Positions 14,102 to 50,581 of a stretch of 64,000 bases of DNA are shown here, one piece after another (position 1 is the stretch's first letter; each line of letters starts with the position of its first letter). The stretch spans positions 1 through 64,000 of the forward strand of contig SUVV01000008.1 in NCBI GenBank assembly GCA_015061805.1. Direction: 5' to 3'. Source of the stretch: Lentisphaerota bacterium. Its GTDB lineage: Bacteria > Verrucomicrobiota > Lentisphaeria > Victivallales > Victivallaceae. The notes below the pieces were generated by a model, which saw only the letters and a list, made by a program, of their open reading frames with translations, had not been told where the DNA came from and did no database searches. The translations under genes and the position numbers were made by a program.

Positions 14102-14190
14102 CCGGGCTTGCGCCCGGCGGGGGAGAGGCATGTGTCGGTTTGCAGCGCAAACCAACGTGAAGCGCCCGCTTATGAGAGTAATGACATAAT
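14102..14190. repeat. Reduced hairpin-array repeat between convergent genes
   Basis: A short hairpin CCGGGCTTGCGCCCGG (14102-14117) is followed at 14131-14190 by a shortened form of the five-hairpin cassette described at 16190: hairpin 1 (GGTTTGCAGCGCAAACC), the spacer AACGTGAAGCG, a degenerate hairpin 5 and a terminal TAATGACATAATA. Hairpins 2-4 are missing. It lies between the ends of two convergent genes, as most full copies do. Confidence 0.7.
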
Positions 14191-14202
14191 AACTTTTTAT
14201 GA

Positions 14203-15699
14203 TCACAGCGCACTTTGCAGAGATCTGGCGTTGTTAAGTATTTGTTGCCGCTCTTTTTGGATGCGGAGATATTCATCCTGTTTTTGTTTCTCTTCGCGGT
14301 ATTTGCTGTAACGTGCCGCTTCCTCCCTGTCGGAATAAGTAACGTCCAAGCGGCATACATCGAGAGTACCGCCCCGTTTATATGCGCAGAATTCCAATTC
14401 AATTTTTTTATATTCTCCGAACCAATAGCTTATTTTCCTGTCTTCCTCTATTCTATCGGTGTAGTATTTGGAATACTTTTCCTGAATTGCAAGTTGTAAA
14501 GATATGAATTTTTTGTTAGTGTTTGTGTTTTGAACAAAAAGCGACCAGAAACCCTCTTCTTCTGTTTTTGCAGTTATTTCGTAAATTTCTCCTTTTTCAT
14601 TTACATATACTTCGTATTCAGAGAAGATTGAAGATGGATTTGGAGGATCTATTTTGAAACAACCGTCTTTTCTGCCATCTTGCAGGATGTCTCCGAAAGA
14701 GATTCCAAAGGCTCCTGTCAAGTGTTTTGCAACTTCTTTTGCCTGAGCATCGTCAACTTTATTTTTCGGTGTATAAGCCGTTGTACTGCTTGATGCCGTT
14801 GTACTGCTTGATGCCGTTGTACTGCTTGATGCCGTTGTACTGCTTGATGCCGTTGTACTGCTTGATGTTGTTGTAGTGTCATGTTCGTCAATATACACAT
14901 ATACGTTGTAAGACATACATAAAATAATTATAAATGCTGCAATGCCGATCGCAATGTTACGCACTATTTTCCCGATTTTGATATTTAACTGTGATTTCGG
15001 GATGGTGAAAGATTTTTGGCAGATGGGACACTCCAGTTCAATTCCGATAAATTCGTCAGGAATGTCCAGTTCGGCATTGCAATTGGGGCATTTTTTTACT
15101 AATTCTTGATTTTTTGCAGATTTTGTTAAACGGGGTTTGATTTTTTCGGTAATGTCGTTTGCAAAGGAATTGAGTTTATTTCTGAATTTTGGTATCAGTT
15201 GACCGTACGTTTTAACTTTATCATTGATTACGGATAATGGCAGTTTATCGATAGAGATTGCTATCGTTTTTTTGCCGGTTCGCACCGGTTGGACTTTTTT
15301 CTTGCAATATTTGCATATCGTTGCTTTTATTTTGATTTTCTCATTGCAAAAGGGACAAATCCGTTCTTCTGCTTCAGAAGCGATTGATTTTTCGCAGCAG
15401 TGGACACATTCATATTCTTTACCTTTCATTGATTCCGGAAGTTCTGTTGCGTTATTACATTCCGGGCAGATAAAGATAAACAGAGCTTCTTCGATATGCG
15501 GATGTTCTGCTGCTTTTTTCAAGTTGGTTTCTGGAGGAATTATTTGCGTTTCGGATTTGTTTGGACCGTTTTTCTGAATTTTTTGGTCAATAACAAATGT
15601 TTTCCTGCACATGGGACACTCGACATCCATGTTGATCCAGTCGTCTTGAGCTTGTAATTTTGCGCCGCAATGTGGACATTTTGTGATGAATTCCGCCAT
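14203..15699 (-). CDS. Multi-zinc-ribbon, single-pass membrane protein
   Basis: A 498-residue protein. Zinc ribbons with paired CxxC knuckles: CPHCGAKL...CPMCRKTF (~8-32), CPECNNATEL...CVHCC (~75-100), CPFCNEKIKIKATICKYCKK (~115-135) and CPNCNAEL...CPICQKSF (~205-235). A membrane segment (~250-275) is followed by a low-complexity Ser/Thr linker built from five identical 18-bp units, then a C-terminal domain of ~170 residues. The start MAEFITK has AAAGGAG upstream; a longer frame is rejected. Cysteine ribbons on one side and a soluble domain on the other suggest a metal-dependent or nucleic-acid/protein-binding membrane sensor, but function is unknown. The gene is AT-richer than its neighbours. 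Confidence 0.75.
   Translation of the reverse strand: MAEFITKCPHCGAKLQAQDDWINMDVECPMCRKTFVIDQKIQKNGPNKSETQIIPPETNLKKAAEHPHIEEALFIFICPECNNATELPESMKGKEYECVHCCEKSIASEAEERICPFCNEKIKIKATICKYCKKKVQPVRTGKKTIAISIDKLPLSVINDKVKTYGQLIPKFRNKLNSFANDITEKIKPRLTKSAKNQELVKKCPNCNAELDIPDEFIGIELECPICQKSFTIPKSQLNIKIGKIVRNIAIGIAAFIIILCMSYNVYVYIDEHDTTTTSSSTTASSSTTASSSTTASSSTTASSSTTAYTPKNKVDDAQAKEVAKHLTGAFGISFGDILQDGRKDGCFKIDPPNPSSIFSEYEVYVNEKGEIYEITAKTEEEGFWSLFVQNTNTNKKFISLQLAIQEKYSKYYTDRIEEDRKISYWFGEYKKIELEFCAYKRGGTLDVCRLDVTYSDREEAARYSKYREEKQKQDEYLRIQKERQQILNNARSLQSAL
14777..14866 (-). repeat. Five identical 18-bp tandem repeats inside a gene
   Basis: The 18-bp unit GCCGTTGTACTGCTTGAT (plus strand) occurs five times with no change, encoding repeated Ser/Thr/Ala hexapeptides in the linker of the zinc-ribbon membrane protein. 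Identity of all copies implies recent expansion by slippage; length probably varies between strains without frameshift. Confidence 0.95.
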
Positions 15700-15738
15700 G
15701 GTATAACTCTCCTTTGATTTAATTTTGAACAAAAAAGA

Positions 15739-15827
15739 GGCACATTCCGAAGAAGTGCCCAGCTCAACGCCTACCACAGCGTTACAAAAACACACAAATA
15801 CGGAATGTGCCAAACCAAGCGGTTTGG
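15739..15827 (-). promoter_or_regulatory. Structured leader with terminator-like stem
   Basis: On the minus strand, ahead of the zinc-ribbon gene, GGCACATTCCG (ending at 15801) pairs with CGGAATGTGCC (15739-15749) over a ~50-nt insert that itself contains AACGC...GCGTT. The closing arm is followed by TCTTTTTTG. A second hairpin, CCAAACC-GCTT-GGTTTGG (15810-15827), precedes it and competes for two bases. The layout fits a transcription attenuator or a small terminated RNA. No riboswitch class was recognised. Confidence 0.5.
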
Positions 15828-16150
15828 ACACACCGATCTAAAAAGTGTTTTTGTATTACGTCTTATTTTTGAAGTGGTAGTTCAGAGCCGGACGTTTACA
15901 ATCAGTTTGCCAAATTTTTATTCAGTATTTTTTCTATATTTACCTCAAAAGTTTTTATTGGAGTGAACCTATTCACCCCAAACGCTATAATTTATATTGC
16001 CTTAAAGAAAATTACAAGTTTTTTGATCGAAAAAAATGATTTTATCATCAAAAATTTTACTATGTTCCGGCAGATGAGAGATAAGAGTGTTTTTTTATAA
16101 AATTTGTCATCGTTCTGTAAGTTGTGATACGATAACAACGTGAGCAAAAC
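15828..16150. other. AT-rich intergenic stretch, no gene seen
   Basis: About 320 bp of AT-rich sequence between the structured leader and the first hairpin-array module. It has a small inverted repeat GTGAACCTATTCAC near 15963-15976. Short ORFs across its right end overlap the repeat arrays and have no ribosome binding site; no gene is supported. Confidence 0.6.
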
Positions 16151-16189
16151 ATACCCCGCTTTTTTTGAAAAGGGATGGGGGAAAGAGTT

Positions 16190-16311
16190 GGTTTGCGATG
16201 CAAACCAACGTGAAGCGCAGGATAGAACCTGCATGGATCATTGCTTTGCAATGTGAAGCGTTTGCCTGTGGCAAACATGAAGCACTCGTTTTCACGAGTA
16301 AGGATATGATA
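16190..16311 (+). repeat. Five-hairpin cassette, locus 1 copy a
   Basis: Five hairpins in fixed order, separated by (G/A)TGAAG-type spacers (here partly ATGGAT): H1 GGTTTGC-GAT-GCAAACC, H2 GCAGG-ATAGAA-CCTGC, H3 CATTGC-TTT-GCAATG, H4 GTTTGCC-TGT-GGCAAAC, H5 CTCGT-TTTC-ACGAG, then the constant tail GTAAGGATATGATA. The preceding 30 bp (from 16152) are the ACCCCGC...TTTTTTGAAAAGGG element that recurs before copy b. Confidence 0.9.
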
Positions 16312-16324
16312 TTTTATATTTCCC

Positions 16325-16349
16325 GTTTTGCGAACAACGTGAGCAAAAC
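16325..16349 (+). repeat. Conserved-loop hairpin, GTTTTGC stem
   Basis: GTTTTGC and GCAAAAC pair around the loop GAACAACGTGA. The same loop recurs at other loci on a different stem (GCCGC/GCGGC). Confidence 0.75.
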
Positions 16350-16388
16350 ATACCCCGCTTTTTTTGAAAAGGGATGGGGGAAAGAGTT

Positions 16389-16510
16389 GGTTTGCGAATG
16401 CAAACCAACGTGAAGCGCAGGATAGAACCTGCATGGATCATTGCTTTGCAATGTGAAGCGTTTGCCTGTGGCAAACATGAAGCGCTCACTTCGTGAGTAA
16501 GGATATGATA
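16389..16510 (+). repeat. Five-hairpin cassette, locus 1 copy b
   Basis: Same order as copy a, with H1 loop GAAT and H5 changed to CTCAC-TTC-GTGAG, which keeps full pairing while two stem positions differ from copy a. Distance between copy starts is 199 bp because the C/G-rich element and conserved-loop hairpin lie between them. Confidence 0.9.
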
Positions 16511-16521
16511 AGTTTATATAA

Positions 16522-16540
16522 GCCGCGACAACGGAGCGGC
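16522..16540 (+). repeat. Conserved-loop hairpin, GCCGC stem
   Basis: GCCGC and GCGGC pair around GACAACGGA, replacing the GTTTTGC stem seen at 16325 while keeping the loop core CAACG. Confidence 0.75.
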
Positions 16541-16574
16541 GACATACCCCGCTTTTTTTGAAAAGGGATGGGGG

Positions 16575-16632
16575 TGTGGGGGAAGGGAAAAACTTTTTTT
16601 CTCGTGAAAAAAAGTTTTTCCCTTCCCCCACA
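16575..16632. terminator. 27-bp perfect palindrome downstream of the histidine phosphatase gene
   Basis: Arms 16575-16601 and 16606-16632 pair without mismatch around the loop TCGT. It begins 11 bp after the stop of the minus-strand gene at 16643. It is probably a strong, possibly bidirectional transcription terminator, although its stem is far longer than a usual intrinsic terminator and it is part of the repeated module. Confidence 0.7.
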
Positions 16633-16642
16633 ATGCCTTCTC

Positions 16643-17314
16643 TCACACAAAGAGCGAGTAGGGCTGGCGTTTTTGGGCATCCGGGACGGTGTAGGCAAGG
16701 TTCCAGGAATCATCGTTATCCTGAAACAGCGCTGCGCCCTGTAAGTAGCCGCACCAGTCATCCGGGGTGAAGAGTCTGACTTTGCTGAAAAAGAGCAGAG
16801 TAACGATCACGATGTCGTGGGTGCAAAGAATCGTATTTTTTGTGTTGAATCTGGTTTGAGTGAGAAAATTCAGCAGATCGGCGACAAAGAGTTTGGCATC
16901 TTTCATCCCTTCGGCTTTGCCGGTTGCAAAATATTGACGGAAGAGCATCGGGATAGTGCCATTGTCGATTGCTTCTTCAAGCGCCTGCGGTGATTCGAAC
17001 ATCGAATGATCGTAAATTTCCGGGCAGAGGCGGATATCCTGCGGTGTCTGGAAGTTTCCGCCATCGATCAACGCTTGTGCGGTTTCTATGGTTCTGCGGC
17101 GCGGTGAAGCACCGAAACCGGCATCTTTCAGTCCGGTCAATAATTTTCCGCAATCGACAGCATATTGTCTGCCTTCGGCGGTCAGACCGGGGTCGTAGTT
17201 TCCGTTGACCAGTGATTCCCGGATGGAGTGGCGCAGCAAAAGCACGCTCCGACGGGATTTTTCCGCGAGTGCCGGAATTTCGGCGAATGAGATGATTTCC
17301 GGATGTATATTCAT
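16643..17314 (-). CDS. Histidine phosphatase superfamily protein
   Basis: A 223-residue cytosolic protein of the phosphoglycerate-mutase-like fold. The catalytic motif reads LLLRHSIRE near residue 27 (RHS in place of the usual RHG), followed by LTAEGRQYA, SPRRRTIETAQ and the second catalytic histidine in ILCTHD near 166. The family removes phosphate from small molecules or proteins; the substrate is not predictable. The gene sits alone, with the 27-bp palindrome of repeat locus 1 directly at its 3' end. Confidence 0.82.
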   Translation of the reverse strand: MNIHPEIISFAEIPALAEKSRRSVLLLRHSIRESLVNGNYDPGLTAEGRQYAVDCGKLLTGLKDAGFGASPRRRTIETAQALIDGGNFQTPQDIRLCPEIYDHSMFESPQALEEAIDNGTIPMLFRQYFATGKAEGMKDAKLFVADLLNFLTQTRFNTKNTILCTHDIVIVTLLFFSKVRLFTPDDWCGYLQGAALFQDNDDSWNLAYTVPDAQKRQPYSLFV

Positions 17315-17385
17315 GCGAGTATTGAAAAAGTTACCCTGACACGCTCTTAAAATGAACGGTCAGGGATGATGTTCAAGTTGGATGT

Positions 17386-18591: not shown

Positions 18592-18630
18592 AACGTACCT
18601 CCTGTTGGTTATTTTTTTAACGATGTTCAC

Positions 18631-18659
18631 AATATACCATCTTTCAGCGTATTTTTCCA
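18631..18659 (-). promoter_or_regulatory. Promoter of the iron alcohol dehydrogenase gene
   Basis: Minus-strand TGGAAA (18654-18659), 17-bp spacer, TATATT (18631-18636). One mismatch from the usual -35. Confidence 0.5.
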
Positions 18660-18690
18660 GTTGCCCCGCCAAAAAAGTAGACAATTTTTT

Positions 18691-18831
18691 GGAGAAATCT
18701 GCGAGGCGGTTGCCGCCGGGCGCGCAGGCTGGACAGAGCGAACCTCCGGTCAAAGATGTTTGCCGGGAATGATCCGGCAGAACCGGTGACTGCTGAGTAT
18801 TGCGAAAAACCCGGCATGAAAACCTTTCTCC
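18691..18831. ncRNA. Candidate structured RNA or element between divergent promoters
   Basis: GC-rich segment with nested complementarity. Outer arms GGAGAAA (18691-18697) and TTTCTCC (18825-18831); then CTGCG/CGCAG (18699-18703, 18723-18727) enclosing GGCGG-TTG-CCGCC; then CCGGT/ACCGG (18746-18750, 18782-18786) enclosing TGCCGG/CCGGCA. It lies between promoters of two divergent genes and has no convincing reading frame. I compared it mentally with cobalamin, TPP, SRP, 6S and RNase P RNAs and found no match; the strand is undetermined. Confidence 0.4.
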
Positions 18832-18900
18832 CCGAAGCAGGAGCAGCCTTTTTCTTGTGAAAAAAGATTGACTGCAATGTGAAATTTCAGTGCATTTGAC

Positions 18901-18929: not shown

Positions 18930-18964
18930 ATCTGAAAAGATCGTTATCAGAAGGGGTTTATTGG

Positions 18965-33679: not shown

Positions 33680-36013
33680 ATGAGAAAATTATGGTTGTTT
33701 CTGTTGTTGGCGTTGAGTTTCTCAACGGCTGTGTCGGCGGATGTTTTCATCCTTAAATCAGCGGAATTCAAATACCCCGGCGTATTGGAAATGCTGAAAA
33801 AAAGTTTGGCTGACGGCGAATCCGCTCTGCCTGCCGGAACTCCTCCGGTGGAAATTTATGCCGGTACGGTCAAAACAGAACCGTTTGCGTCAGTTTTCAA
33901 AGCCGCACTCCCGGGAAAGAAATTGGAATATGACGGCTATGCTGTCGTCGTCAAAGGCAGAAAAGTTTATCTTATCGGCAACGTCGAACGCGCCGTGGTT
34001 TACGCTGCCAATGATTTTCTGGAAAAACAGGCCGGATTCTACCGCCGGGTGCGCCCGGTCGAAAATGGCACCGGCGGTAAAAAACTTGCACTGAAAGATG
34101 CCGCCTGGTTCAACAATCCCGCTTTTGAAATGCGCGGACTTGCCGGTTTTGCTTACAAACGGCTCCATCCGGATTTTCTCGACTGGGAGATGATCAATGG
34201 ATTCAACTTCCGTCCTTTTAACATGAAAGAAAATGCATTCACCCGTGACGAACTTATCCGCCGCGGTTACGATATCAAGCACTCCGGTCACGCTTTCTAC
34301 TACTGGATCAACAACGACGATTACGCCAAACATCCGGAATATTTCCCGCTTATCAAGGGCAAGCGCCAGAAATTTGAAAAGCGCAACTACTCCACGAAAG
34401 TCATGATCAACGTCGGAAATAAAGAGGTTCAGGATCTGGTCGTTCAGCGGATGTTTGAATATATGAAAAAATATCCCGAAACCACCATGATCTCCATGGG
34501 TATGAATGACGGCGGCGGCTGGGGAGATTCTCCGGAAGAGCGCGCCATGGATGACCCCGAAGAGTACAAACGCGGCGTATATTCCACCCGCTATTTCCGT
34601 TTCTGCAACATCATCGCCGAAAAGTTCTGCAAGCGCTATCCCAATGTTCAGATTTTCGTCTACGCCTATCTGACTGCGGTACAGCCGCCCAATCTGAAAA
34701 AACTGCACCCGAATCTTTTCGTTTCTCTCTGTACCTACCGCCGCGATTACAAGCACCGGATCAACGATCCCTCCTCTTCAGTCAACGCCTATTGGAATGA
34801 TCTTATCCTGCGTTGGAAAAAGTTCGGCAATCCCGTCTATATCCGCGATTACATCCTTTTCGGCGGCAGTCCGGCATTTGATGTGCCGATGCTGAAAATT
34901 CTCCAGCAGGATCTGCAGTATTACCGTTCGATCGGTATCAACGCTTATCACTCCGAATGTATCGTCGATATGCCCCGTCCCGATGCTTCCGCTGAAATCA
35001 TCGGCAACTACAAGGGCAGAAATACCGCGCAGGGCAGATGCCGTTACTACTGGCACGGTATGAAAATGGTCTACCATCTGCTCGGAAAACTGCTCTGGGA
35101 TCCCTATGCCGATCTTGATCAGTTGAAAACCGAATATTTCAAAAAATATTACGGCCCGGCAGCGAAATATATGGAAAATATCCATAATCTCATCGCCAAG
35201 CGCTGGGAAGCCGATCCCGCCCCCTATATCTGGAATAAATACGATACCAACTTCCCCCAGATGCTTTTCGTCCCGGGAGATATCGAATATATTGCCAAGC
35301 AGTTGAAGTCAGCCGAAGCCGCCGTCAAAAAGAGCGGTGATAAACAGCTGATCCAGCGTATCGGATGGGAAAAAGAACTGGTCAATAAAGAGTACCGCAA
35401 ACGTTACTCGGCGTTCCAGAATACCCTGAATGTGACCGCTTTCTCCGGCAAAATCACTCCGGATGCGGTAAAGAAACACGCCATCGCCAATAAATCGGTC
35501 ATTGACAACTTCAATACCTTTGAACGTGCGAGCAAGAGTGTCCGTAAATCTTCGTATCCGGTGAAAATTTACTGCGCTGTGCAGGGTGATAACCTCATCG
35601 TTGTCGGTGATTTCGATCAGAAAAAGATTCCGGTTTCCTTTGAGAAAAGAGAAAATGACAATCAGGTCTGGCGCGGCAACAGCACCATGGAACTCTTTAT
35701 CGGTGCCGGTCCCAATACTGCCGGTGACGGTTACTATCAACTGATCGTCACTCCGCTTGGCAATTACTGGGATGGTCAGTTGGGCCGGGTTTTCTGGAAC
35801 AGCAACAGCAGTTTCTCTGCAACCAAAACTAAATTCACTTGGCAGGCGATGGCGATTATTCCGCTTTCCAAACTGGGATATCCCAAGGATGCCAAAAATT
35901 TCAAAATCCGTATGAATTTCGGTCGCAGTATTCCCGGTGTCGAAATCGCCAGCTGGACCAATGGCACCTTTGCCAATGAATCAGCTTTCGGCGTGCTGAA
36001 TATCAAACGGTGA
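33680..36013 (+). CDS. Secreted DUF4838 glycosidase-like protein with C-terminal carbohydrate-binding-type domain
   Basis: A 777-residue protein with signal peptide (~1-20). Residues ~30-145 form the N-terminal alpha/beta domain common to GH20/GH67-type enzymes (GKRVYLIGNVERAVVYAAND-like stretch). Residues ~150-500 are the DUF4838 barrel: NPAFEMRGLAGF, SGHAFYYWINNDDYAKHPEY, MISMGMNDGGGWGDSPEE and INAYHSECI with candidate acidic catalytic residues. The last ~170 residues (WRGNSTMELFIGAGPNTAG, LGRVFW, FKIRMNFGR) resemble a CBM9-like domain. DUF4838 proteins are frequent in Lentisphaerae, Planctomycetes and Bacteroidetes; substrate unknown. Confidence 0.85.
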   Translation: MRKLWLFLLLALSFSTAVSADVFILKSAEFKYPGVLEMLKKSLADGESALPAGTPPVEIYAGTVKTEPFASVFKAALPGKKLEYDGYAVVVKGRKVYLIGNVERAVVYAANDFLEKQAGFYRRVRPVENGTGGKKLALKDAAWFNNPAFEMRGLAGFAYKRLHPDFLDWEMINGFNFRPFNMKENAFTRDELIRRGYDIKHSGHAFYYWINNDDYAKHPEYFPLIKGKRQKFEKRNYSTKVMINVGNKEVQDLVVQRMFEYMKKYPETTMISMGMNDGGGWGDSPEERAMDDPEEYKRGVYSTRYFRFCNIIAEKFCKRYPNVQIFVYAYLTAVQPPNLKKLHPNLFVSLCTYRRDYKHRINDPSSSVNAYWNDLILRWKKFGNPVYIRDYILFGGSPAFDVPMLKILQQDLQYYRSIGINAYHSECIVDMPRPDASAEIIGNYKGRNTAQGRCRYYWHGMKMVYHLLGKLLWDPYADLDQLKTEYFKKYYGPAAKYMENIHNLIAKRWEADPAPYIWNKYDTNFPQMLFVPGDIEYIAKQLKSAEAAVKKSGDKQLIQRIGWEKELVNKEYRKRYSAFQNTLNVTAFSGKITPDAVKKHAIANKSVIDNFNTFERASKSVRKSSYPVKIYCAVQGDNLIVVGDFDQKKIPVSFEKRENDNQVWRGNSTMELFIGAGPNTAGDGYYQLIVTPLGNYWDGQLGRVFWNSNSSFSATKTKFTWQAMAIIPLSKLGYPKDAKNFKIRMNFGRSIPGVEIASWTNGTFANESAFGVLNIKR

Positions 36014-36759
36014 ACAAAATGAAGCGATTTTCAATTTTTCTCGCGGCATTTGCCGCTGTGATTTCCAGTGCCGTTGAACTCAACGGCAATAAGGAATTCA
36101 TCAGTCTGAATTGGAAAAACACCATGGCCCGTCCGGTTTTTACCGTGAGTTTCAAGGTGCGTATGGACAAGAAAAATATGGTCATCCCTGCTCATGTGAA
36201 AAACCGGGGCAGGATACTGTTCAATTTGAGCTGTCAACCCAAAACGGTTCCCGGTCTGCAGAGTATGAAACTGTTTTTTCAGATGACTGCTCATCCGACC
36301 GGCGGCTATGCCGGTATTCAGGCGGACGGTCTCGACTACAAGGGAAAAAATGAAAAAATCCGCTACAATGTCTATTGGCGCGCTGCCAACAGTCAGGTTC
36401 CGACCGATGAATTCGTCACGGTGACGCTGGTTTATGCCGACGGCAGATTCGATGCCTATTTGAATCAGCAGAATCATGCCGCTCTGCACAAACTTATGAC
36501 CCATACGGTAGGATTTGCCGCACCGGAATTCAAGATGACCTTCGGCGGTTCCGGTGCCAGATACAATGTGCCGTGTGCGATCAAAGATATTGCGATTTTC
36601 GATCGGGCCTTGACTTTGGATGATGTCAAGCATCTTGTCAACGGCGGAAATCCCAAAGATGTCGTCGGACTGTTGGCACATTATCCGATGGAGAAAAACG
36701 CTGTTCCGGCAGTCAGTTATCCGCAGATAAGTGCCAAACTGCACAAGCGCAAAAAGTAA
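36010..36759 (+). CDS. Secreted LamG/concanavalin-like protein
   Basis: A 249-residue secreted protein: signal sequence FSIFLAAFAAVISSA, then a single jelly-roll domain with the LamG-type signature IKDIAIFDRALTLDDVKHLV and the closing GLLAHYPME. Such domains bind glycans. The GTG start overlaps the DUF4838 stop as GTGA; ATG 36019 is an alternative. Translational coupling suggests that it is the binding partner of the DUF4838 protein. Confidence 0.78.
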   Translation: MNKMKRFSIFLAAFAAVISSAVELNGNKEFISLNWKNTMARPVFTVSFKVRMDKKNMVIPAHVKNRGRILFNLSCQPKTVPGLQSMKLFFQMTAHPTGGYAGIQADGLDYKGKNEKIRYNVYWRAANSQVPTDEFVTVTLVYADGRFDAYLNQQNHAALHKLMTHTVGFAAPEFKMTFGGSGARYNVPCAIKDIAIFDRALTLDDVKHLVNGGNPKDVVGLLAHYPMEKNAVPAVSYPQISAKLHKRKK

Positions 36760-36821: not shown

Positions 36822-36858
36822 ATTTTACGTTATGTTCCCACTCCCGGAAAATTGTGTT

Positions 36859-36979
36859 GGTTTGCGATGCAAATCAACGTGAAGAGCAGGATAAATCCTG
36901 CGTGAAGCATTGCTTCGCAATGTGAAGTGTTTGCCTGCGGCAAACGTGAAGCGCTCGCTCCGCGAGTAATGATATGATA
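36859..36979 (+). repeat. Five-hairpin cassette, locus 2 copy a
   Basis: H1 GGTTTGC-GAT-GCAAATC (one G-T pair), H2 GCAGGAT-AA-ATCCTGC, H3 CATTGC-TTC-GCAATG, H4 GTTTGCC-TGC-GGCAAAC, H5 CTCGC-TCC-GCGAG, tail GTAATGATATGATA. Confidence 0.9.
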
Positions 36980-36995
36980 AATTTATAGTCTTGTT

Positions 36996-37116
36996 GTTTT
37001 GCGTTGCAAACCAACGTGAAGCGCAGGATAAATCCTGCGTGAAGCATTGCTTCGCAATGTGAAGCGTTTACCTGCGGCAAACGTGAAGCGCTCGCTTCGC
37101 GAGTAAGGATATGATA
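36996..37116 (+). repeat. Five-hairpin cassette, locus 2 copy b
   Basis: Starts 137 bp after copy a. H1 is altered at its first base, H4 has one mismatch (GTTTACC/GGCAAAC), H5 is CTCGC-TTC-GCGAG, tail GTAAGGATATGATA. Confidence 0.9.
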
Positions 37117-37130: not shown

Positions 37131-37154
37131 GTTTTGCGACCAACGGGAGCAAAA
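37131..37154 (+). repeat. Conserved-loop hairpin, GTTTTGC stem
   Basis: TTTTGC and GCAAAA pair around GACCAACGGGA, between copy b and the TCCGC...TTTTCGAAAAGGGG element (37156-37184). Confidence 0.7.
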
Positions 37155-37184
37155 ATACTCCGCTTTTTTCGAAAAGGGGTGGGG

Positions 37185-37240
37185 TGTGGGGAGGGGAAAA
37201 ACCTTTTTTCCCGTGAAAAAAGGTTTTTCCCCTCCCCACA
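37185..37240. terminator. 26-bp perfect palindrome downstream of gpsA
   Basis: Arms 37185-37210 and 37215-37240 pair without mismatch around CCGT. It starts 17 bp after the gpsA stop on the minus strand. Outer bases are TGT/ACA; at 50526 the same positions are TTT/AAA, a compensated change. Confidence 0.7.
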
Positions 37241-37256: not shown

Positions 37257-38297
37257 TCAGCGGAATTCCTGCCAGGGGATATCGCAGACGGCATTCTGGT
37301 TGATGACGGCATCCAGAAATGACAACAGCCGGAAATCTGCCGGGTCAACTTTTCCTTGTGCGGCAAGTTCCCGCAAGGCATGGTTTATCCGGGTAATGAT
37401 GACCACGCTTTCGAGGGTGACTCCGGCAAGTTCCGCTTTGGCTTCGGCATAACTTTTTCCTTTGCCCAGCAGATAGCCGAGTTTCCGGGTGCGTCCTCCG
37501 AAGATCGTCACATAAAGGTCGCCCGCGCCGGGGATGCCGCAGGCAAAATCGGGATTGCCGCCGTAGAATTTGAGCAATCTTCCCATCTCCCGGAGGCTCT
37601 GTCCGAACAATGCCGCCTGTGGATTATACATGTAAGCATCGGCGCCTTCAAGTTTTTCCGCGAGGCCGATGCCCATGGAAACGGCAACGGCAAAAGCATT
37701 TTTCAAGGCAACACACATCTCCACGCTCAATACATCATTGGAAATATCCGGATGATAGTAGCCGGTGGTCAGCAACTGTTGAAATTGTTTCAATGCCGCG
37801 CTGTCTTCTCCGCAGAAATAGACCATTGTCTGGTGACGGTCCATCAGTTCATAACTGGTGCAGGGGCCGCCGATGGCGCTGAAACTCACCTTGCCCCGGA
37901 GGTGGGGCGGCAGAGATTTTTTGAAATATTCCGGGAAAGTCATCACCGCACCCTCCGGCTGATTGAGCAACCCTTTGGTCACCGCCAGTACCGGTACCCC
38001 CGGGATCAGTCTGGGGATGATCTCCTCTTTGAACCACTCCACGCCGAAACTGCTGACTCCGCAGATGATATATTCAGTACCTTCAAGCGCGGAATCCAGT
38101 TCTTCAATCTGATAATATTTGATCCCGTCCGGCAACTGGCGTTTCATCGGGACATGCCGTCCGGAAATGCGTGCTTCATTGATGATTTCCCGGTCGAGCG
38201 GAGTACCGACCAGACGCACTTCGTGTCCGTTGTCCCGGGCCGGTCGACTCATTCCGGACCCCATCATTCCGGAACCGATAATTGTGATTACAGCCAT
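37257..38297 (-). CDS. gpsA: NAD(P)-dependent glycerol-3-phosphate dehydrogenase
   Basis: A 346-residue cytosolic enzyme reducing dihydroxyacetone phosphate to sn-glycerol 3-phosphate for phospholipid synthesis. Nucleotide motif IIGSGMMGSGM at the N-terminus, VTKGLL (~107), the catalytic Lys in VALKNAFAVAVSMG (~205) and GAGDLYVTIFGGRTRKLG (~255), equivalent to the GLGDL-LTC----SRN-G signature. It is somewhat divergent from the standard signature, so a related 2-hydroxy-acid substrate is not excluded. The repeat locus 2 palindrome follows directly. Confidence 0.82.
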   Translation of the reverse strand: MAVITIIGSGMMGSGMSRPARDNGHEVRLVGTPLDREIINEARISGRHVPMKRQLPDGIKYYQIEELDSALEGTEYIICGVSSFGVEWFKEEIIPRLIPGVPVLAVTKGLLNQPEGAVMTFPEYFKKSLPPHLRGKVSFSAIGGPCTSYELMDRHQTMVYFCGEDSAALKQFQQLLTTGYYHPDISNDVLSVEMCVALKNAFAVAVSMGIGLAEKLEGADAYMYNPQAALFGQSLREMGRLLKFYGGNPDFACGIPGAGDLYVTIFGGRTRKLGYLLGKGKSYAEAKAELAGVTLESVVIITRINHALRELAAQGKVDPADFRLLSFLDAVINQNAVCDIPWQEFR

Positions 38298-44243: not shown

Positions 44244-45428
44244 ATGAATCTCTTGTCAAATGAAGTCAAGGCGTTTCTGGGTAACTCTTCCATGATCCGC
44301 CGGATGTTTGAAGCCGGTATCGAATTGAAAAAACAGTACGGTGCCGAAAATGTTTACGATTTCAGTCTGGGCAATCCCGACCTGCCGCCGCCGGTCGAGA
44401 TCAAAACTGCCATGAAAGAAATTTCCGAAGATGCCGATAAGATGTTTGCTTTCGGCTACATGCCCAATGCCGGAAGTGTCGAATGCCGTGCGGCTCTTGC
44501 CAAACTGCTCAAAAAAGAACAGGATCTTACGGTCGATCCTGCCGATATCATCGTCACCTGCGGCGCTGCCGGCGGTATCAACGCCTTTTTCCGGGCGGTA
44601 ATGGAACGGGGCGACGAGGTCATCTGTCCCTCTCCCTATTTCGTCGAATACGGTTTTTATGCCGGAAATTACGGCGGTACGCTGAAACCGGTTCCGACCA
44701 ATGAAGATTTTTCTCTGAATATCGCCAACATCGAGGCGGCGATCACGGAGAAAACCCGGGCGATCATTCTCAACTCTCCCAACAATCCGACCGGTAAGAT
44801 CTATACCGCAGCCGAACTTGCTGAAGTTGCCGCTGTCCTGCTTGCCGCCCGGAAAAAATATGGCAGAATGATCTATATCGTCGCCGATGAACCCTATCGT
44901 TTCCTCAATTTTGACAATGCGGAGATCCCGTCGATTGCCAAAATTTACGATGGTACCGTTGTCATCGGTTCATTTTCCAAGAATCTGTCGCTCCCCGGTG
45001 AACGTCTGGGCTATATCGCCGTTTCTCCCATGTTGGAGAATAAAGCCGAACTCATCGGCGCAATGACCCTGACCAACCGCATTCTCGGATTTGTCAACGC
45101 CCCGGTCGTCGGTCAGAAATTGATCGAAAAGTGCTGGGATTGTCAGGTTGAACTGGATATCTACCGCCGCCGCCGCGATGCGATGGCAAAGGTGCTGACT
45201 GATGCCGGAATTGAATTCATCATGCCGGGCGGAGCCTTCTACTTCTTCCCGAAATCTCCGGTTGCGGATGAACGTATTTTCATTGATGCGCTGCTTAAGG
45301 AGCGGGTGCTGGCGGTGCCGGGCAGAGGATTCGGTGCGCCGGGATACTTCCGTTTGGCATTCTGCGTTTCCGAGAAAAATATCACCGATTCAGCGGAAAG
45401 TTTCAAGCGGGCAATGGCTGCCATTTGA
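44244..45428 (+). CDS. Class I pyridoxal-phosphate aminotransferase
   Basis: A 394-residue fold-type I aminotransferase of the AspB group. SLGNPDLPPP (~42), the cofactor-loop CGAAGGINAFF (~108), NSPNNPTGK (~173), ADEPYR with the PLP-ring Asp (~213), the Schiff-base Lys in SFSKNLSLPGERLGY (~245) and the carboxylate Arg in YFRLAFC (~374). Substrate amino acid not predictable; aspartate, alanine or a precursor of lysine synthesis are typical. Single gene downstream of the exporter, with repeat locus 3 at its 3' end. Confidence 0.88.
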   Translation: MNLLSNEVKAFLGNSSMIRRMFEAGIELKKQYGAENVYDFSLGNPDLPPPVEIKTAMKEISEDADKMFAFGYMPNAGSVECRAALAKLLKKEQDLTVDPADIIVTCGAAGGINAFFRAVMERGDEVICPSPYFVEYGFYAGNYGGTLKPVPTNEDFSLNIANIEAAITEKTRAIILNSPNNPTGKIYTAAELAEVAAVLLAARKKYGRMIYIVADEPYRFLNFDNAEIPSIAKIYDGTVVIGSFSKNLSLPGERLGYIAVSPMLENKAELIGAMTLTNRILGFVNAPVVGQKLIEKCWDCQVELDIYRRRRDAMAKVLTDAGIEFIMPGGAFYFFPKSPVADERIFIDALLKERVLAVPGRGFGAPGYFRLAFCVSEKNITDSAESFKRAMAAI

Positions 45429-45464
45429 GCAGCCGTTCTTTCCCGATAAGGGGAGATGGCATCA

Positions 45465-45533
45465 TGGGGAGGGGAAAAACCTTTTTTCACGAGAAAAAAG
45501 GCCGAACGTCGGCCTCGGTATATCCCCTCCCCA
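45465..45533. terminator. Palindrome of repeat locus 3 with an altered right arm
   Basis: Same palindrome as at the other loci (GGGGAGGGGAAAAACC left arm), but the right arm is interrupted: between GAAAAAAGG and CCCCTCCCC the expected TTTTT is replaced by about 20 bp containing GGCCG-AACGT-CGGCC. It follows the aminotransferase stop by 36 bp and keeps the inner stem needed for termination. Confidence 0.65.
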
Positions 45534-45637
45534 CACCCCACTCCTTTTCGAAAAAAGTGGAGTATGTTTGCTCCCGACTTGTCCCGCCACAGCTCCCTGA
45601 GCGACGGCGGATGGTCGCAAAACAGGAAACATAAATT

Positions 45638-45760
45638 TATCATATCCTTACTCACGGAGTGAGCGCTTCACGTTTGCCAGATGGCAAACGCTTCACATTG
45701 CAAAGCAATGCTTCACGCAGGATTTATCCTGCTCTTCACGTTGGTTTGCATGCGCAAACC
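45638..45760 (-). repeat. Five-hairpin cassette, locus 3 copy a
   Basis: Minus orientation. H5 CTCAC-TCC-GTGAG, H4 GTTTGCC-ATCT-GGCAAAC, H3 CATTGC-TTT-GCAATG, H2 GCAGGAT-AA-ATCCTGC, H1 GGTTTGC-GCAT-GCAAACC. Spacers and the GGATATGATA tail are conserved. Confidence 0.9.
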
Positions 45761-45769
45761 AACACAAAT

Positions 45770-45788: not shown

Positions 45789-45801
45789 AAGACTATAAAT
45801 T

Positions 45802-45922
45802 TATCATATCCTTACTCACGGAGTGAGCGCTTCATGTTTGCCAAAGGCAAACGCTTCACATTGCGAAGCAATGCTTCACGCAGGATTTATCCTGCACTTC
45901 ACGTTGGTTTGCAACGCAAACC
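45802..45922 (-). repeat. Five-hairpin cassette, locus 3 copy b
   Basis: Minus orientation, 164 bp from copy a. H5 CTCAC-TCC-GTGAG, H4 GTTTGCC-TTT-GGCAAAC, H3 CATTGC-TTC-GCAATG, H2 as copy a, H1 GGTTTGC-GTT-GCAAACC. Confidence 0.9.
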
Positions 45923-45931
45923 AACACAAAT

Positions 45932-45950
45932 GCCGCTCCGTTGTCGCGGC
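45932..45950 (-). repeat. Conserved-loop hairpin, GCCGC stem, second in locus 3
   Basis: Minus strand GCCGC-GACAACGGA-GCGGC. It is followed by CAAAGCGACGGCGGATGG, which also occurs in a related form (GAGCGACGGCGGATGG) near 45598-45614. Confidence 0.7.
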
Positions 45951-45995
45951 ACAGTTTGCAAAGCGACGGCGGATGGCCGCAAACAATAAACTTAT

Positions 45996-46040
45996 CAAAT
46001 AAAACGGGCTGTTGCCAAAACCTCCAGAGAGGCAGGCAAC
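45996..46040 (-). terminator. Terminator downstream of nagA
   Basis: On the minus strand GTTGCC (from 46040) pairs with GGCAAC (to 46011) with an inner CCTCTCTGGAGG, followed by AGCCCGTTTTATTT. Confidence 0.6.
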
Positions 46041-46066
46041 ATCCCCCAATTTTTTTGGGTCAGATT

Positions 46067-47206: not shown

Positions 47207-47240
47207 TTTTTTCTCCTGTTGAATTTTATTTCCGTGTAAT

Positions 47241-47268
47241 AATATAGCGCTGGAATCAGCAAGTGCAA
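47241..47268 (-). promoter_or_regulatory. nagA promoter
   Basis: Minus-strand TTGCAC (47263-47268), 16-bp spacer, TATATT (47241-47246). The near-palindrome GTGCAAATGCAC overlaps the -35. Confidence 0.6.
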
Positions 47269-47332
47269 ATGCACAAATCAACATTCCGCATGGACAATTT
47301 TGCAAAAAAGTCGTTATTGGCAACAGCAAGGT

Positions 47333-47361
47333 TTGATTTCTGATGCAAACGGGACTATATT
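47333..47361 (+). promoter_or_regulatory. Promoter of the nucleotidyltransferase-kinase operon
   Basis: TTGATT (47333-47338), 17-bp spacer, TATATT (47356-47361), 41 bp before the ATG. Confidence 0.65.
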
Positions 47362-47402
47362 AAACTCAAAACATCAACGATCTTTATACAAGGAATTTTA
47401 CT

Positions 47403-48314
47403 ATGAGTTTGTCGCTTTTGATCCTCGCCGCCGGAATGGGCAGCCGCTATGGCAGTCTGAAACAACTTGACCAGATGGGGCCTTCCGGTGAAACCGTGAT
47501 GGACTACTCCGTTTTTGATGCTCTGCGTTCCGGCTTTGACCGGATAATCTTCGTCATCCGCAAGGATTTTGAGGAGGAATTCAAAAACGTCATCGGCAAA
47601 CGCTATGAAGGCAAGGTCAAAATCGAATACGCTTTCCAGGATCTTAACGATCTTCCCGGCAATTTCAAATGCCCGGAAGGCCGCGAAAAACCCTGGGGTA
47701 CCGGACACGCCGTCTACGCGGCAAGAGAACTGCTTACCGAACCTTTTGCCGTGATCAATGCTGACGACTTCTACGGCCGTGACAGTTATGTGCAGTTGGC
47801 AAACTATCTGACCGATCCGCCGGCTCCCGGAAAGGTGCGCGGCTGTATCGCCAGTTTCATTCTGAGCAATACCCTGAGCGAAAACGGTTCTGTTTCCCGC
47901 GGTATTTGCACCGACAACGGCAATGGTATGCTGATGAATGTTGTCGAAAACACCAAGATCTACCGCCGCGCTTCTGACGGAAAAGTGGTGAGTTTGATGG
48001 ATGACGGCAAAGAGGTGGAACTCACCGGAAATGAAGCTGCTTCCATGAACTCCTGGGGCTTCATGCCGGAGATGGTCGGCGAAATCGAAAAACTCTTTAT
48101 CGAATTTCTGGAAGCTCGCGGCACTGAACTCAAAAGCGAATTCTATCTCCCCGGTGTGGTCGATTCTCTCATCCGCAGCGGCAAGGCTGAAATCGCCATG
48201 CGCTGCAGCAAAGACAGCTGGTTCGGAGTCACCTACAAAGAAGACCGTCCGCTGGTTCAGGCGGCGTTGAAAAAACTGGTCGATTCCGGCGCCTATCCGG
48301 AAAAACTTTTCTGA
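47403..48314 (+). CDS. Sugar-1-phosphate nucleotidyltransferase
   Basis: A 303-residue GT-A-fold nucleotidyltransferase: LLILAAGMGSRYGSLKQLDQ (nucleotide loop, ~5-24), KPWGTGHAVYAARELL (~98), and the metal Asp in AVINADDFYG (~120). It would join a sugar 1-phosphate to UTP or another NTP. The next gene encodes an NahK-like anomeric kinase, so the likely substrate is N-acetylhexosamine 1-phosphate, giving UDP-GlcNAc or UDP-GalNAc. Substrate assignment is from context only. Confidence 0.85.
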   Translation: MSLSLLILAAGMGSRYGSLKQLDQMGPSGETVMDYSVFDALRSGFDRIIFVIRKDFEEEFKNVIGKRYEGKVKIEYAFQDLNDLPGNFKCPEGREKPWGTGHAVYAARELLTEPFAVINADDFYGRDSYVQLANYLTDPPAPGKVRGCIASFILSNTLSENGSVSRGICTDNGNGMLMNVVENTKIYRRASDGKVVSLMDDGKEVELTGNEAASMNSWGFMPEMVGEIEKLFIEFLEARGTELKSEFYLPGVVDSLIRSGKAEIAMRCSKDSWFGVTYKEDRPLVQAALKKLVDSGAYPEKLF

Positions 48315-48330
48315 CAGGAGAATTTATATC

Positions 48331-49434
48331 ATGCCGACTCCCTTTTCCCAGAATGAAATACGCCGACTGATCTCAATGTTTGAAGTTTATGGCGATTTCC
48401 TGGTCGGCGCCCCATTCGGCAACGGCAACGTCAATGATACCTTTCAGTTGACCTTCGATCAGGGCGGTATCCGTTTGCACTACATCTTGCAGCGGATCAA
48501 TTCCAACGTTTTCAAAGCCCCGGTCAAGGTGATGGAAAATGTCGCAAAAGTGACCAGCCATATCCTGAAAAAGATCAAAGCCGCTCACAACGAAACCCGC
48601 AAACGCACCATCCGTCTGCTCAAGGCTCTGGATGGTAAACCTTATGCTTTTGACGATCTCGGCAATTGCTGGCGCGCCTATGTTTTCGTGGAACATGCCC
48701 GCAGTTACGATGTGCTGGAAACTCCGGAGCAGGCTTTCCGTATCGCGCAGGGATTCGGTGAATTTCAGGAGCAGCTCAACGATCTGCCCGGCCGTCTGCA
48801 TGAAACGATCCCCGATTTTCACAATACTCCGAAACGGATCGCCCAACTGGAAGCTGCCGTCAAAGCCGACGCCTGCAACCGGGTGAAGGATGTCCGGAAG
48901 GAGATCGATTTTGTACTCTCCCGTGCGGCGGAAACCGATACTCTGCTCAAACTTCACGCCAGCGGTGATATTCCGGAACGTATCACCCACAACGACACCA
49001 AAGCCAACAACATTCTGATCGATGACGTCACCGGAGAAGCCGTCTGTGTTATCGACCTCGATACCGTGATGCCGGGACTTGCCCTCTATGACTTCGGCGA
49101 TATGGTGCGCAGTGGCACCAACCCTGCCGAAGAAGATGAGGTGGATCTGAATAAAGTCGGCATGCGTTTTGATATGTATCAGGGATTTTATGAAGGTTTC
49201 ATCGATACCGCCGGCAAGTTCCTCACTCCGGCTGAACATGAATATCTTCCTTTCTCCGGAAAACTTATCACGCTGGAGATCGGCACCCGGTTCCTGACCG
49301 ACTATCTCGCCGGAGACATCTACTTCAAGACCCGCCGTCCCAATCAGAATCTCGACCGTTGCCGCACCCAGTTCAAACTGGTCGAATCGATGGAAGCACA
49401 AATGAATCACATGAAAGATCTGCTGTTGAAATGA
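48331..49434 (+). CDS. APH-fold sugar kinase, NahK-like
   Basis: A 367-residue aminoglycoside-phosphotransferase-fold kinase. FGNGNVNDTFQLTF (ATP loop, ~28), catalytic HNDTKANNILID (~218) and IDLDTVMPGLALYDFGDMVR (DxD metal motif, ~240). The exact HNDTK-NN-L loop and the neighbouring nucleotidyltransferase match N-acetylhexosamine 1-kinase (NahK) of bifidobacteria, which phosphorylates GlcNAc/GalNAc at C1. It is the second gene of the operon, 16 bp after the first, and overlaps the third by 4 nt. Confidence 0.85.
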   Translation: MPTPFSQNEIRRLISMFEVYGDFLVGAPFGNGNVNDTFQLTFDQGGIRLHYILQRINSNVFKAPVKVMENVAKVTSHILKKIKAAHNETRKRTIRLLKALDGKPYAFDDLGNCWRAYVFVEHARSYDVLETPEQAFRIAQGFGEFQEQLNDLPGRLHETIPDFHNTPKRIAQLEAAVKADACNRVKDVRKEIDFVLSRAAETDTLLKLHASGDIPERITHNDTKANNILIDDVTGEAVCVIDLDTVMPGLALYDFGDMVRSGTNPAEEDEVDLNKVGMRFDMYQGFYEGFIDTAGKFLTPAEHEYLPFSGKLITLEIGTRFLTDYLAGDIYFKTRRPNQNLDRCRTQFKLVESMEAQMNHMKDLLLK

Positions 49435-50144
49435 GTAATTCAATGCCCCTTATCGGTATCACTCCGCTGTTGGATGTTGCCACCGGCAATACCGCGATGC
49501 GTTCCTCTTATATCGACGCTTTGGAAAATGCCGGAGCGATCCCGGTCATTATGCCGATGACGGAAAATACCGCTACGCTGGATTATTTTCTTGAGATGTG
49601 TGACGGTATTCTGATGAGCGGCGGCCAGGATGTTCAGCCCCATCTCTACAATGAGGAAAAACTTCCCCATTGCGGCGAAGTTGTTCCCCAACGCGACAAG
49701 CTTGATCAATATGTTTTCCGGCGTGCGCTCGAATTGAATAAGCCCATTCTCGGCATTTGCCGGGGATGTCAGGCGATGAATGTTTTTGCCGGAGGTTCTC
49801 TCTATCAGGATTTGAGAATCGATTTCGGAACTGATTTCAATCACCGCATGGAAGAGCCGTTCAACCGGGAATCCCATTTGATGATACCGCAGAAAGATAC
49901 TCCGCTGGTTGAACTGCTGGGCGAAAGACTCTTTTCGGTAAACAGCGTTCACCATCAGGGCATCAAACGTCTGGGTGACGGCTTTGATATCATGGCGGTT
50001 TCCGAAGACGGCGTCATTGAAGCAATCTATATGCCGACGCGCCGTTTTGTCTGGGGCGTCCAATGGCATCCGGAATGGTTCTTCGCTGAAAATGCCGACA
50101 GCGCGGCAGTCATTGCCGCCTTTGTCAACGCGGCAAAGGAATAA
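49431..50144 (+). CDS. Class I glutamine-amidotransferase-like hydrolase (peptidase C26)
   Basis: A 237-residue protein of the gamma-glutamyl-GABA hydrolase (PuuD-like) family. MSGGQDVQPHLY (oxyanion region), nucleophile Cys in LGICRGCQAMNVFAGGSLYQ (~109), and the His-Glu pair in GVQWHPEWFF (~213). It cleaves a gamma-glutamyl amide. Its link to the kinase and nucleotidyltransferase is unclear; co-occurrence with NahK-like kinases suggests it acts on a glutamylated metabolite of the same route. Start at 49431 overlaps the kinase stop as ATGA. Confidence 0.85.
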   Translation: MSNSMPLIGITPLLDVATGNTAMRSSYIDALENAGAIPVIMPMTENTATLDYFLEMCDGILMSGGQDVQPHLYNEEKLPHCGEVVPQRDKLDQYVFRRALELNKPILGICRGCQAMNVFAGGSLYQDLRIDFGTDFNHRMEEPFNRESHLMIPQKDTPLVELLGERLFSVNSVHHQGIKRLGDGFDIMAVSEDGVIEAIYMPTRRFVWGVQWHPEWFFAENADSAAVIAAFVNAAKE

Positions 50145-50211
50145 GATTTTTCAATACACTTTGGTTTATGCGCTGCGCTCTATTCCCATTCGGAGGGAGA
50201 TAAAATGTGTT

Positions 50212-50331
50212 GGTTTGCGTTGCAAACCAACGTGAAGCGCAGGATAAATCCTGCGTGAAGCATTGCTTCGCAATGTGAAGCGTTTGCCTTTGGCAAACAT
50301 GAAGCGCTCGCTTCGCGAGTAAGGATATGAT
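50212..50331 (+). repeat. Five-hairpin cassette, locus 4 copy a
   Basis: H1 GGTTTGC-GTT-GCAAACC, H2 GCAGGAT-AA-ATCCTGC, H3 CATTGC-TTC-GCAATG, H4 GTTTGCC-TTT-GGCAAAC, H5 CTCGC-TTC-GCGAG, tail GTAAGGATATGAT. Confidence 0.92.
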
Positions 50332-50337
50332 TGTGTT

Positions 50338-50459
50338 GGTTTGCGATACAAACCAACGTGAAGCGCAGGATAAATCCTGCGTGAAGCATTGCTTCGCAAT
50401 GTGAAGCGTTTGCCTTTGGCAAACATGAAGCGCTCGCTTGCGCGAGTAAGGATATGATA
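50338..50459 (+). repeat. Five-hairpin cassette, locus 4 copy b
   Basis: Direct tandem repeat of copy a at a 126-bp period. Differences: H1 GGTTTGC-GATACAAACC (one mismatch) and H5 CTCGC-TTGC-GCGAG (one-base longer loop). The two copies are almost identical otherwise, implying recent duplication. Confidence 0.92.
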
Positions 50460-50472
50460 AATTTATAGTCTT

Positions 50473-50491
50473 GCCGCGACAACGGAGCGGC
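50473..50491 (+). repeat. Conserved-loop hairpin, GCCGC stem
   Basis: GCCGC-GACAACGGA-GCGGC, followed by the CCCCGC...TTTTCGAAAAGGGG element (50496-50525). Confidence 0.75.
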
Positions 50492-50525
50492 AAAAATACC
50501 CCGCTTTTTTCGAAAAGGGGTGGGG

Positions 50526-50581
50526 TTTGGGGAGGGGAAAAACCTTTTTTCCCGTGAAAAAAGGTTTTTCCCCTCCCCAAA
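50526..50581. terminator. 26-bp perfect palindrome downstream of azlD
   Basis: Arms 50526-50551 and 50556-50581 pair without mismatch around CCGT; outer bases TTT/AAA. It begins 30 bp after the azlD stop on the minus strand. Confidence 0.7.

Follow-up and report, generated by a model that had tools for sequence, protein, structure and literature searches.

What is the elaborate series of hairpins that follows four separate genes in a stretch of DNA from a Lentisphaerota bacterium, and how did it come to stand at their 3' ends? The stretch, called here the window, comprises 64,000 nucleotides (assembly GCA_015061805.1, contig SUVV01000008.1, positions 1 to 64,000 of the forward strand), and an earlier note, made from its letters alone, had proposed either a non-autonomous mobile element that targets terminators or a structured RNA system acting in trans. 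The answer favoured here, with a probability of roughly 0.78, is that the hairpin module represents a family of mobile repeats, small and non-autonomous, which occurs in one Lentisphaerae family and has copies after gene stop codons and related pieces in frame in the leaders of prepilin genes. The repeat is real and widespread, and at the four window loci it is of an ordinary kind, like BOX elements or miniature inverted-repeat transposable elements (MITEs); its extension into prepilin coding sequence is unusual and well supported, and lies outside the window, beyond the view of the earlier note. In the labels used below, G000 is the genome of the window (2.29 Mb, 91% complete; the window is G000:C31:1-64000), G001 onward are relatives, L is a stretch around a match and C is a contig.

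By direct reading, all four window loci share one order outward from the stop codon of the gene: a long, almost perfect palindrome on the side of the stop (H1, GGGGAGGGGAAAAACC...GGTTTTTCCCCTCCCC), a C/G-rich TTTTCGAAAA element (H2, laid out as CCCC-TTTTCGAAAA-AAGCGGGG), a conserved-loop hairpin (H3) and then two five-hairpin cassettes. H3 occurs in two types, TTTTGC-TC-N-CGTTG-N'-TC-GCAAAA or GCCGC-TC-CGTTG-TC-GCGGC, and is followed by TATAAATTTATCATATCCTTACTC and then by the cassette hairpins H5-H9, which are linked by GCTTCAC; the opposite strand shows GTGAAGC linkers and TAAGGATATGATAA. Locus 3 has an expanded H3 and an H1 broken up by a separate GCCGAACGTCGGC hairpin, and at locus 1 a second H2-H3 sits between the two cassettes. 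This order, the expansion at locus 3 included, had already been recognised, as had the genes on the H1 side (minus-strand genes at 16643, 37257 and 50612, and a plus-strand gene ending at 45428). All eight window cassettes match a covariance model built from 28 cassettes with E <= 1.3e-27, where E-values are rough and six of the eight, all but the two of locus 1, were in the training set. The fold of locus 2 is computed at -149.2 kcal/mol, compared to -92.6 +/- 5.1 for 100 shuffles (z -11); the structure of the module is far beyond chance.

The evidence for mobility comes from further copies and from gene ends that lack the module. A full intergenic copy has a terminal inverted repeat, CGCTCTGTTCCC...GGGGAGAT, enclosing H1, H2, H3, 0-5 cassettes and a further H3 piece; several copies have TTCCCGATAAGGGGAGAT or a close form of it outside H1, and complete distal ends read, from outside inward, CGCTCTGTTCCCATTCTGGGGAGATAATATTTTTCAATAAC. 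Just one contiguous copy with both ends was found by script; this copy, L067, is 370 bp long, has the inverted repeats CGCTATATTCCCGATAAGGGGAGAT and CGCTCTGTTCCCATTCTGGGGAGAT, and is flanked on both sides by ATTCAAAA, an exact 8-bp repeat at the element ends. By eye, one element whose 8-bp flanks match is split between the ends of contigs C12 and C21, and this insertion and that of L067 each overlap a stop codon; mobile repeats at contig ends probably explain the contig breaks. Single ends or remnants of the terminal inverted repeat are present in several further copies. The family thus shares with MITEs its terminal inverted repeats, its shortness, its many copies (about 40 places) and the lack of a transposase gene.

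The H1+H2 module was found after the stop of the aminotransferase gene of locus 3 in none of 15 relatives, and after the stop of the gpsA-like gene of locus 2 in none of eight, the relatives' genes being best matches for which synteny was not required. Neither H1 nor H2 was seen at the 15 aminotransferase genes, and the eight gpsA-like genes gave one lone H2-like match, in G011, 425 nt away; the regular expression used misses the H1 of window locus 3 itself, yet it detects H2 and the linkers there. From these comparisons, the module appears not to be ancestral at the two genes tested. Together with the inverted repeats, the 8-bp flank and the matching inserts in unrelated genes of different species described below, this supports the mobile element that had been suggested. 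The accompanying statement that no target duplication is inside the module agrees with the window loci, where none was found (by script, and for locus 4 also by eye), but an 8-bp one flanks the intact copy elsewhere in the genome.

With locus 2 as query, 82 match rows were obtained in G000, including partial pieces and the palindrome H1 counted on both strands, and were grouped by eye into about 40 places; the covariance model gave at least 74 cassette matches in the same genome. Thirty-one modules were scored, being those with H1 and H2 fitting the regular expression; window locus 3, contig-end copies and copies with damaged H1 were left out. They carry no cassette in 7 cases, one in 11, two in 9, three in 2, four in 1 and five in 1, so that the strict pairing of cassettes noticed earlier is a chance feature of the four window loci and does not hold genome-wide. 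H1 starts 4-39 nt past the stop of a gene pointing at it in 27/31 modules. Under the same rule and in the same stretches, this was true of 496/16,600 random positions (3%) and of 254/1,218 random positions outside called open reading frames (ORFs; 21%). By a looser rule without its own control, 16 of the 20 usable non-prepilin copies in relatives lie no more than 75 nt past an ORF end. The layout of neighbouring genes is approximately 19 convergent, 11 tandem and one without a neighbour (the distal gene of locus 2 being mis-called). The genome-wide search links the cassettes to gene 3' ends; single cassettes scattered with no such link, the outcome that would have refuted the earlier observation, were not what it showed. 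The narrower idea that terminators are targeted fared less well: gene 3' ends are indeed where copies lie, but a scan of locus 2, the sole locus scanned, did not single out H1 as an intrinsic terminator, and there is a second large niche in prepilin coding leaders.

The position of H1 is also what would be expected of a host-maintained 3'-end device, in which H1 ends or insulates transcription and the cassettes form a structured 3' untranslated region or a protein-bound RNA platform that uses the repeated GTGAAG/CTTCAC linkers. The very stable fold would suit such a device, as would the co-variation of the hairpin arms: stems co-vary between species and linkers are constant (H8 is GCAGGAT..ATCCTGC, GCCGGGAA..TTCCCGGC or GACGGAT..ATCCGTC), with two-sided changes at 7/37 predicted pairs. 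Template-switch correction of palindromes could, however, also yield paired arm changes. Judged by eye, the wobble pairs have no clear strand bias, departures of the G-U and A-C types being similar in number, and so do not indicate an active strand. Neither of the two orthologous gene ends that were compared conserves the module, the number of cassettes runs from 0 to 5 with variable distal ends, and the terminator scan of locus 2 did not flag H1. A host device is, on this evidence, decidedly unlikely, and a structured RNA acting in trans found no support either, Rfam giving 0 matches at the gathering score over window positions 14000-51000.

The range of the repeat is narrow. The covariance-model search that the earlier note had called for gave matches in at least 19/40 relatives (own genome counted), all of one genus, and, under stricter filters, in 18/288 genomes of the phylum, all of family f1. 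A strict H1 pattern occurs at least 58 times in G000 and in at least 15/40 relatives including its own genome; among the matches listed it was found in 0/16 genomes outside the genus, and a reversed control pattern gave 0. The exact H7 core with its linkers was met in 11 named stretches, every title being that of a Lentisphaerae or Lentisphaeria metagenome-assembled genome, and is absent from the viral contigs searched. In the genomes searched, then, the repeat is confined to one Lentisphaerae family. The earlier note knew of no named family with this layout, and Rfam and the plasmid, phage and viral collections searched gave no match; no published record of the repeat or of prepilin leader inserts in Lentisphaerae was found in an open-access library, which covers part of the literature.

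The second setting of the repeat was met where cassette and H1 matches, in relatives and in some cases in G000, abut FTLIELLVVIAIIAIL codons, which are those of the prepilin N-terminal methylation motif. N_methyl and TIGR02532 were both seen in five proteins scanned, with several N_methyl scores just below the Pfam cut-off and all TIGR02532 scores above the cut-off of that model. Prepilin N-termini gave 47 matches in G000 and, among the matches listed, 8 to 92 in each of six relatives. The best 39 of the 47, the eight weakest being left out, were read as frames: 18 have an H3-H2-H1 module in the leader (some truncated), one has a cassette array, two have another duplication and 18 have none. 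A typical insert-bearing gene runs from the start codon through a short leader to FTLIELLV, the insert and FTLIELLVVIAII. The second FTLIE is specific to the module, with TTYACTTTAATAGAA present in 14/19 module-bearing genes (the 18 and a remnant, L177) vs 0/19 others (both 'other duplication' genes included), where the classes are peptide patterns.

The reading frame is kept with great regularity. A frame-blind search found 41 successive pairs of FTLIELL-coding stretches no more than 480 nt apart, in several species; 40/41 spacings are multiples of three and none of these 40 contains an in-frame stop, although the pairs include repeated copies of one insert and are not independent events. The exception, L153, with a spacing of 142 nt, is upstream of an open frame without an ATG. 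In 18/18 prepilin copies of H2-H1 only the pilin frame is open, the remaining two being closed, despite differing copy lengths. Among 36 H2-H1 copies without following FTLIEL codons (four prepilin copies already in the other set being left out), the pilin-equivalent frame contains stops in 8; every one of these 36 copies has an open frame. For the cassettes, at least one frame is open on the CTTCAC strand in 57/57 distinct sequences and none is open on the GTGAAG strand; the prepilin arrays seen lie on the CTTCAC strand. Every CTTCAC linker might be a relic of FT codons left by successive insertions, an idea that stays conjecture because the linkers within prepilin arrays lie in different frames.

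Inserts are closely alike in different species. The 231-nt insert is 89-98% identical between species in nine pairs, the 279-nt insert of L134 is 97-98% identical to two G018 copies, and the 180-nt insert of G012 is 93-97% identical to three G000 copies. Host sequence past the insert is mostly 46-65% identical, and four pairs with a stretch of only 55 nt reach 67-73%.

The same genes invite another explanation, namely that the inserts spread by gene conversion among paralogues, perhaps serving variation of leaders or antigens, and that the intergenic copies are by-products. In its favour are the many prepilin-type N-termini of six related genomes and the FTLIELLV codons that flank each insert left and right, with which exchange would keep the frame. 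Over 24 nt, however, the two FTLIELL copies within one gene, left and right of the insert, share a mean of 77%, compared to 74% for copies from different genes, which offers little to homologous recombination. The intergenic copies have inverted repeats of their own and the inserts match closely between species, both of which argue against conversion as the source; it is considered unlikely.

Several observations weigh against the favoured reading of a mobile family. The 8-bp flank rests on one contiguous copy and one inferred across a contig break, locus 4 has both inverted-repeat remnants and, by eye, no matching 8-bp flanks, and, by eye among the matches listed for the incomplete G000, no paired matches resembling the terminal inverted repeat (<=2 mismatches) were found within 3 kb other than L067. 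Degenerate H1-like sequence lies past the aminotransferase stop in G010 and G005, and some insertion sites may be old. An H-module or array is rarer in the leaders of relatives than in those of G000: 1/15 in G012 (the best 15 of 92 matches), 7/25 in G015 (25 of 76), 9/25 in G018 (25 of 77) and 2/24 in G021 (24 of 77), with nine leader rows without genome assignment kept outside the per-genome counts. Not all inserts are close, a third G018 copy (L221) of the 279-nt insert being 86% identical to L134 and the 180-nt insert of G015 62-77% identical to those of G012 or G000. The prepilin copies read have no inverted repeats, and therefore need a second route of movement. Finally, no enzyme is linked to the repeat: Y1_Tnp and RVT_1 were not found in several copy-rich, incomplete genomes.

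These two enzymes correspond to other modes of transposition. Repetitive extragenic palindrome (REP) hairpins are preceded by GTAG, and the same 5-6 nt linker stands before each hairpin here; the repeats could thus be REP-like elements moved by an HUH transposase (Y1, or REP-associated tyrosine transposase, RAYT) recognising TTCAC and a hairpin. Y1 genes are present in some relatives. Against this, Y1_Tnp was not found in G003, G015, G018 or G020, which hold many copies and are 72-90% complete, and in G000 it is broken. HUH transposition is not known to make a target duplication, whereas an 8-bp one flanks the intact copy. The RAYT/HUH link was rejected on the state of Y1_Tnp in these five genomes, and a REP-like origin is very improbable. 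The sole Y1_Tnp trace in G000 is a broken transposase remnant with three internal stop codons, at G000:C29:20906-21220.

Alternatively, insertion could resemble that of a retroelement, by target-primed reverse transcription with the H1 end fixed and the other end variably truncated. In the intergenic copies among the matches listed, the H1 end is indeed fixed and the distal end stops at variable places, and left junctions vary among the prepilin copies. RVT_1 was not found in the incomplete genomes G000, G003, G008 and G020, so that a link to reverse transcriptase, not being consistently associated, is unsupported, and terminal inverted repeats with an 8-bp flank suit DNA transposition better. 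This route, too, has very little probability.

The family of mobile hairpin repeats remains the preferred reading, and its known parallels are of several kinds. BOX elements of Streptococcus pneumoniae have a module at either end and tandem middle modules (boxB) whose number varies; they carry terminal inverted repeats, target duplications and, if transcribed, stable stem-loops, and are often at the extreme 3' end of genes, as in 36 of the 58 coding sequences that overlap a BOX in one genome (PMC3049150). The composite modular layout, variable middle units, inverted repeats and gene 3' ends are all shared, the organisation being matched from description and not by sequence. The present element differs in having a middle unit of five hairpins joined by CTTCAC linkers, an H1 whose long, nearly perfect palindrome faces the stop, and pieces that lie in frame in prepilin genes. 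A modular MITE-like repeat, working in the manner of pneumococcal BOX elements, is the best reading of the intergenic composite.

For the coding copies, Rickettsia palindromic elements (RPEs) offer a likeness: these palindromic repeats of about 100-150 bp are intergenic and also in frame within protein genes, whose product tolerates them, and they enter many unrelated genes (PMC2229807, PMC10969869). An in-frame palindromic insert in coding genes, here met in prepilin genes, is the common trait, likened by layout and not by sequence. Unlike RPEs, the coding copies found here are at one motif, prepilin FTLIELLV, and carry its first codons; other coding genes were outside the search. Integrative elements in tRNA genes carry a copy of the end of their target gene, restoring it after insertion, and the inserts resemble them in carrying the target's end so that the gene is restored, but no integrase or cargo is seen here and insertion is into a protein-coding motif. 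PARCELs of Mollicutes and other microbes are likewise palindromic coding repeats that have spread horizontally, some of them in membrane proteins, and form tandem 25-residue domains (PMC2996958); here, by contrast, the repeats lie ahead of the mature pilin, and in their other locations they do not code.

In the mechanism proposed for this mobile family, the intergenic copies would be moved in trans by a predicted DDE-type transposase and would either insert at stop codons or directly beside them, or else persist only there. The number of cassettes would shift through tandem duplication and loss, as with boxB in BOX elements. Entry into a prepilin gene would take place at the FTLIELLV codons, the entering piece being either H3-H2-H1 or an array of cassettes. 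With FTLIE codons of its own at the 3' end of the insert, such a gene would keep its start codon and encode a long leader ahead of a complete mature pilin N-terminus. When prepilin peptidase cleaves before Phe, as the motif leads one to expect, the peptide derived from the insert would be shed. Given this placement and the shedding of leaders, the repeats may be tolerated at two sites where they do little harm, gene 3' ends and removable leaders. A bolder proposal, which can be put forward only tentatively, is that of a mobile hairpin element specialised on a protein-processing signal: in type IV prepilin-type genes it would insert where FTLIELLV is encoded, with the one necessary frame open and its own FTLIE, its peptide would become a longer removable leader with the mature pilin unchanged, and dozens of paralogues would offer it a harmless coding home, the intergenic BOX-like composites of the window being the non-coding branch.

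The features of the four window loci are collected in Table 1. Locus 1 lies between genes in tandem. Three of the loci had been placed between convergent genes; this holds for loci 3 and 4, whose neighbours have clear Pfam matches, and is likely, not certain, for locus 2, where Pfam matches the distal gene (36010-36759) only below threshold.

Table 1. Positions of module parts at the four window loci (strand of the window in the third column).
Feature	Position	Strand	Remark
Locus 1 H1 long palindrome	16578..16629	-	13 nt past stop of minus-strand gene 16643-17314
Locus 1 H3 (GCCGC type) + H2	16522..16571	-	direct reading
Locus 1 cassette nearest H1	16386..16509	-	covariance-model match, outside training set
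Locus 1 second H3 (TTTTGC type) + H2, between cassettes	16320..16381	-	direct reading
Locus 1 distal cassette, then further H2-H3 piece	16187..16310	-	covariance-model match, outside training set
Locus 2 H1 long palindrome	37188..37237	-	19 nt past stop of gene 37257-38297
Locus 2 H3 + H2	37131..37184	-	direct reading
Locus 2 cassette nearest H1	36993..37115	-	covariance-model match, in training set
Locus 2 distal cassette	36856..36978	-	covariance-model match, in training set
Locus 3 left terminal-inverted-repeat sequence TTTCCCGATAAGGGGAGAT	45439..45457	+	scan for terminal inverted repeats
Locus 3 H1 broken by GCCGAACGTCGGC hairpin	45466..45532	+	direct reading
Locus 3 H2 + expanded H3	45541..45622	+	direct reading
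Locus 3 cassette nearest H1	45639..45763	+	covariance-model match, in training set
Locus 3 distal cassette, then terminal H3 piece	45803..45925	+	covariance-model match, in training set
Locus 4 H1 long palindrome	50529..50578	-	33 nt past stop of gene 50612-50953
Locus 4 H3 (GCCGC type) + H2	50473..50524	-	direct reading
Locus 4 cassette nearest H1	50335..50458	-	covariance-model match, in training set
Locus 4 distal cassette	50209..50331	-	covariance-model match, in training set
Locus 4 distal terminal-inverted-repeat remnant CGCTCTATTCCCATTCGGAGGGAGAT	50175..50200	+	by eye against the ends of other copies; left remnant scored by script

Some further sequences were noticed within or beside these parts. 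The GCCGAACGTCGGC hairpin breaks H1 in several copies, both intergenic and prepilin (window 45500-45514, L317 and L115). On the GTGAAG strand the cassette ends in TAAGGATATGAT at the window loci of this genome and in TAAGGATGTGTT in L012 and L024; each agrees in 10/12 bases with TAAGGAGGTGAT, presumably the complement of the 16S rRNA 3' end, a likeness that may be due to chance. Another dispersed repeat, GTTTTGCAAG...GAGCCGACAGGAGCGTACTG..., stands after or beside cassettes or H-modules in L043, L057 and L322, with diverged forms in L033 and L084, and looks like an unrelated family. Past the aminotransferase stop in L287 (G001), tandem AAGACAAGAAAAGCCAACTACCCTACTTTCTTTTCCACGAAAAG and variants of it fill the 3' side, a different 3'-end repeat. 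Other short perfect palindromes lie directly before the FT codons in some prepilin leaders, namely L049 (near 5409, TTTACTCCGGCATGCCGGAGTAAA), L099, L102 and L018.

Mobile palindromes within genes are known from Rickettsia; the coding copies found here share a single site, the prepilin processing motif, and appear to rebuild it. For annotation this calls for caution, since as many as about 157 codons ahead of the final FTLIELLV may be repeat-derived (L174, with 291 + 180 nt). If the proposal is true, the inserts would be a protein-level counterpart of the elements that restore the tRNA gene they have entered, with the host's own peptidase clearing the insert, and an old question, how selfish repeats survive in coding DNA, would become testable.

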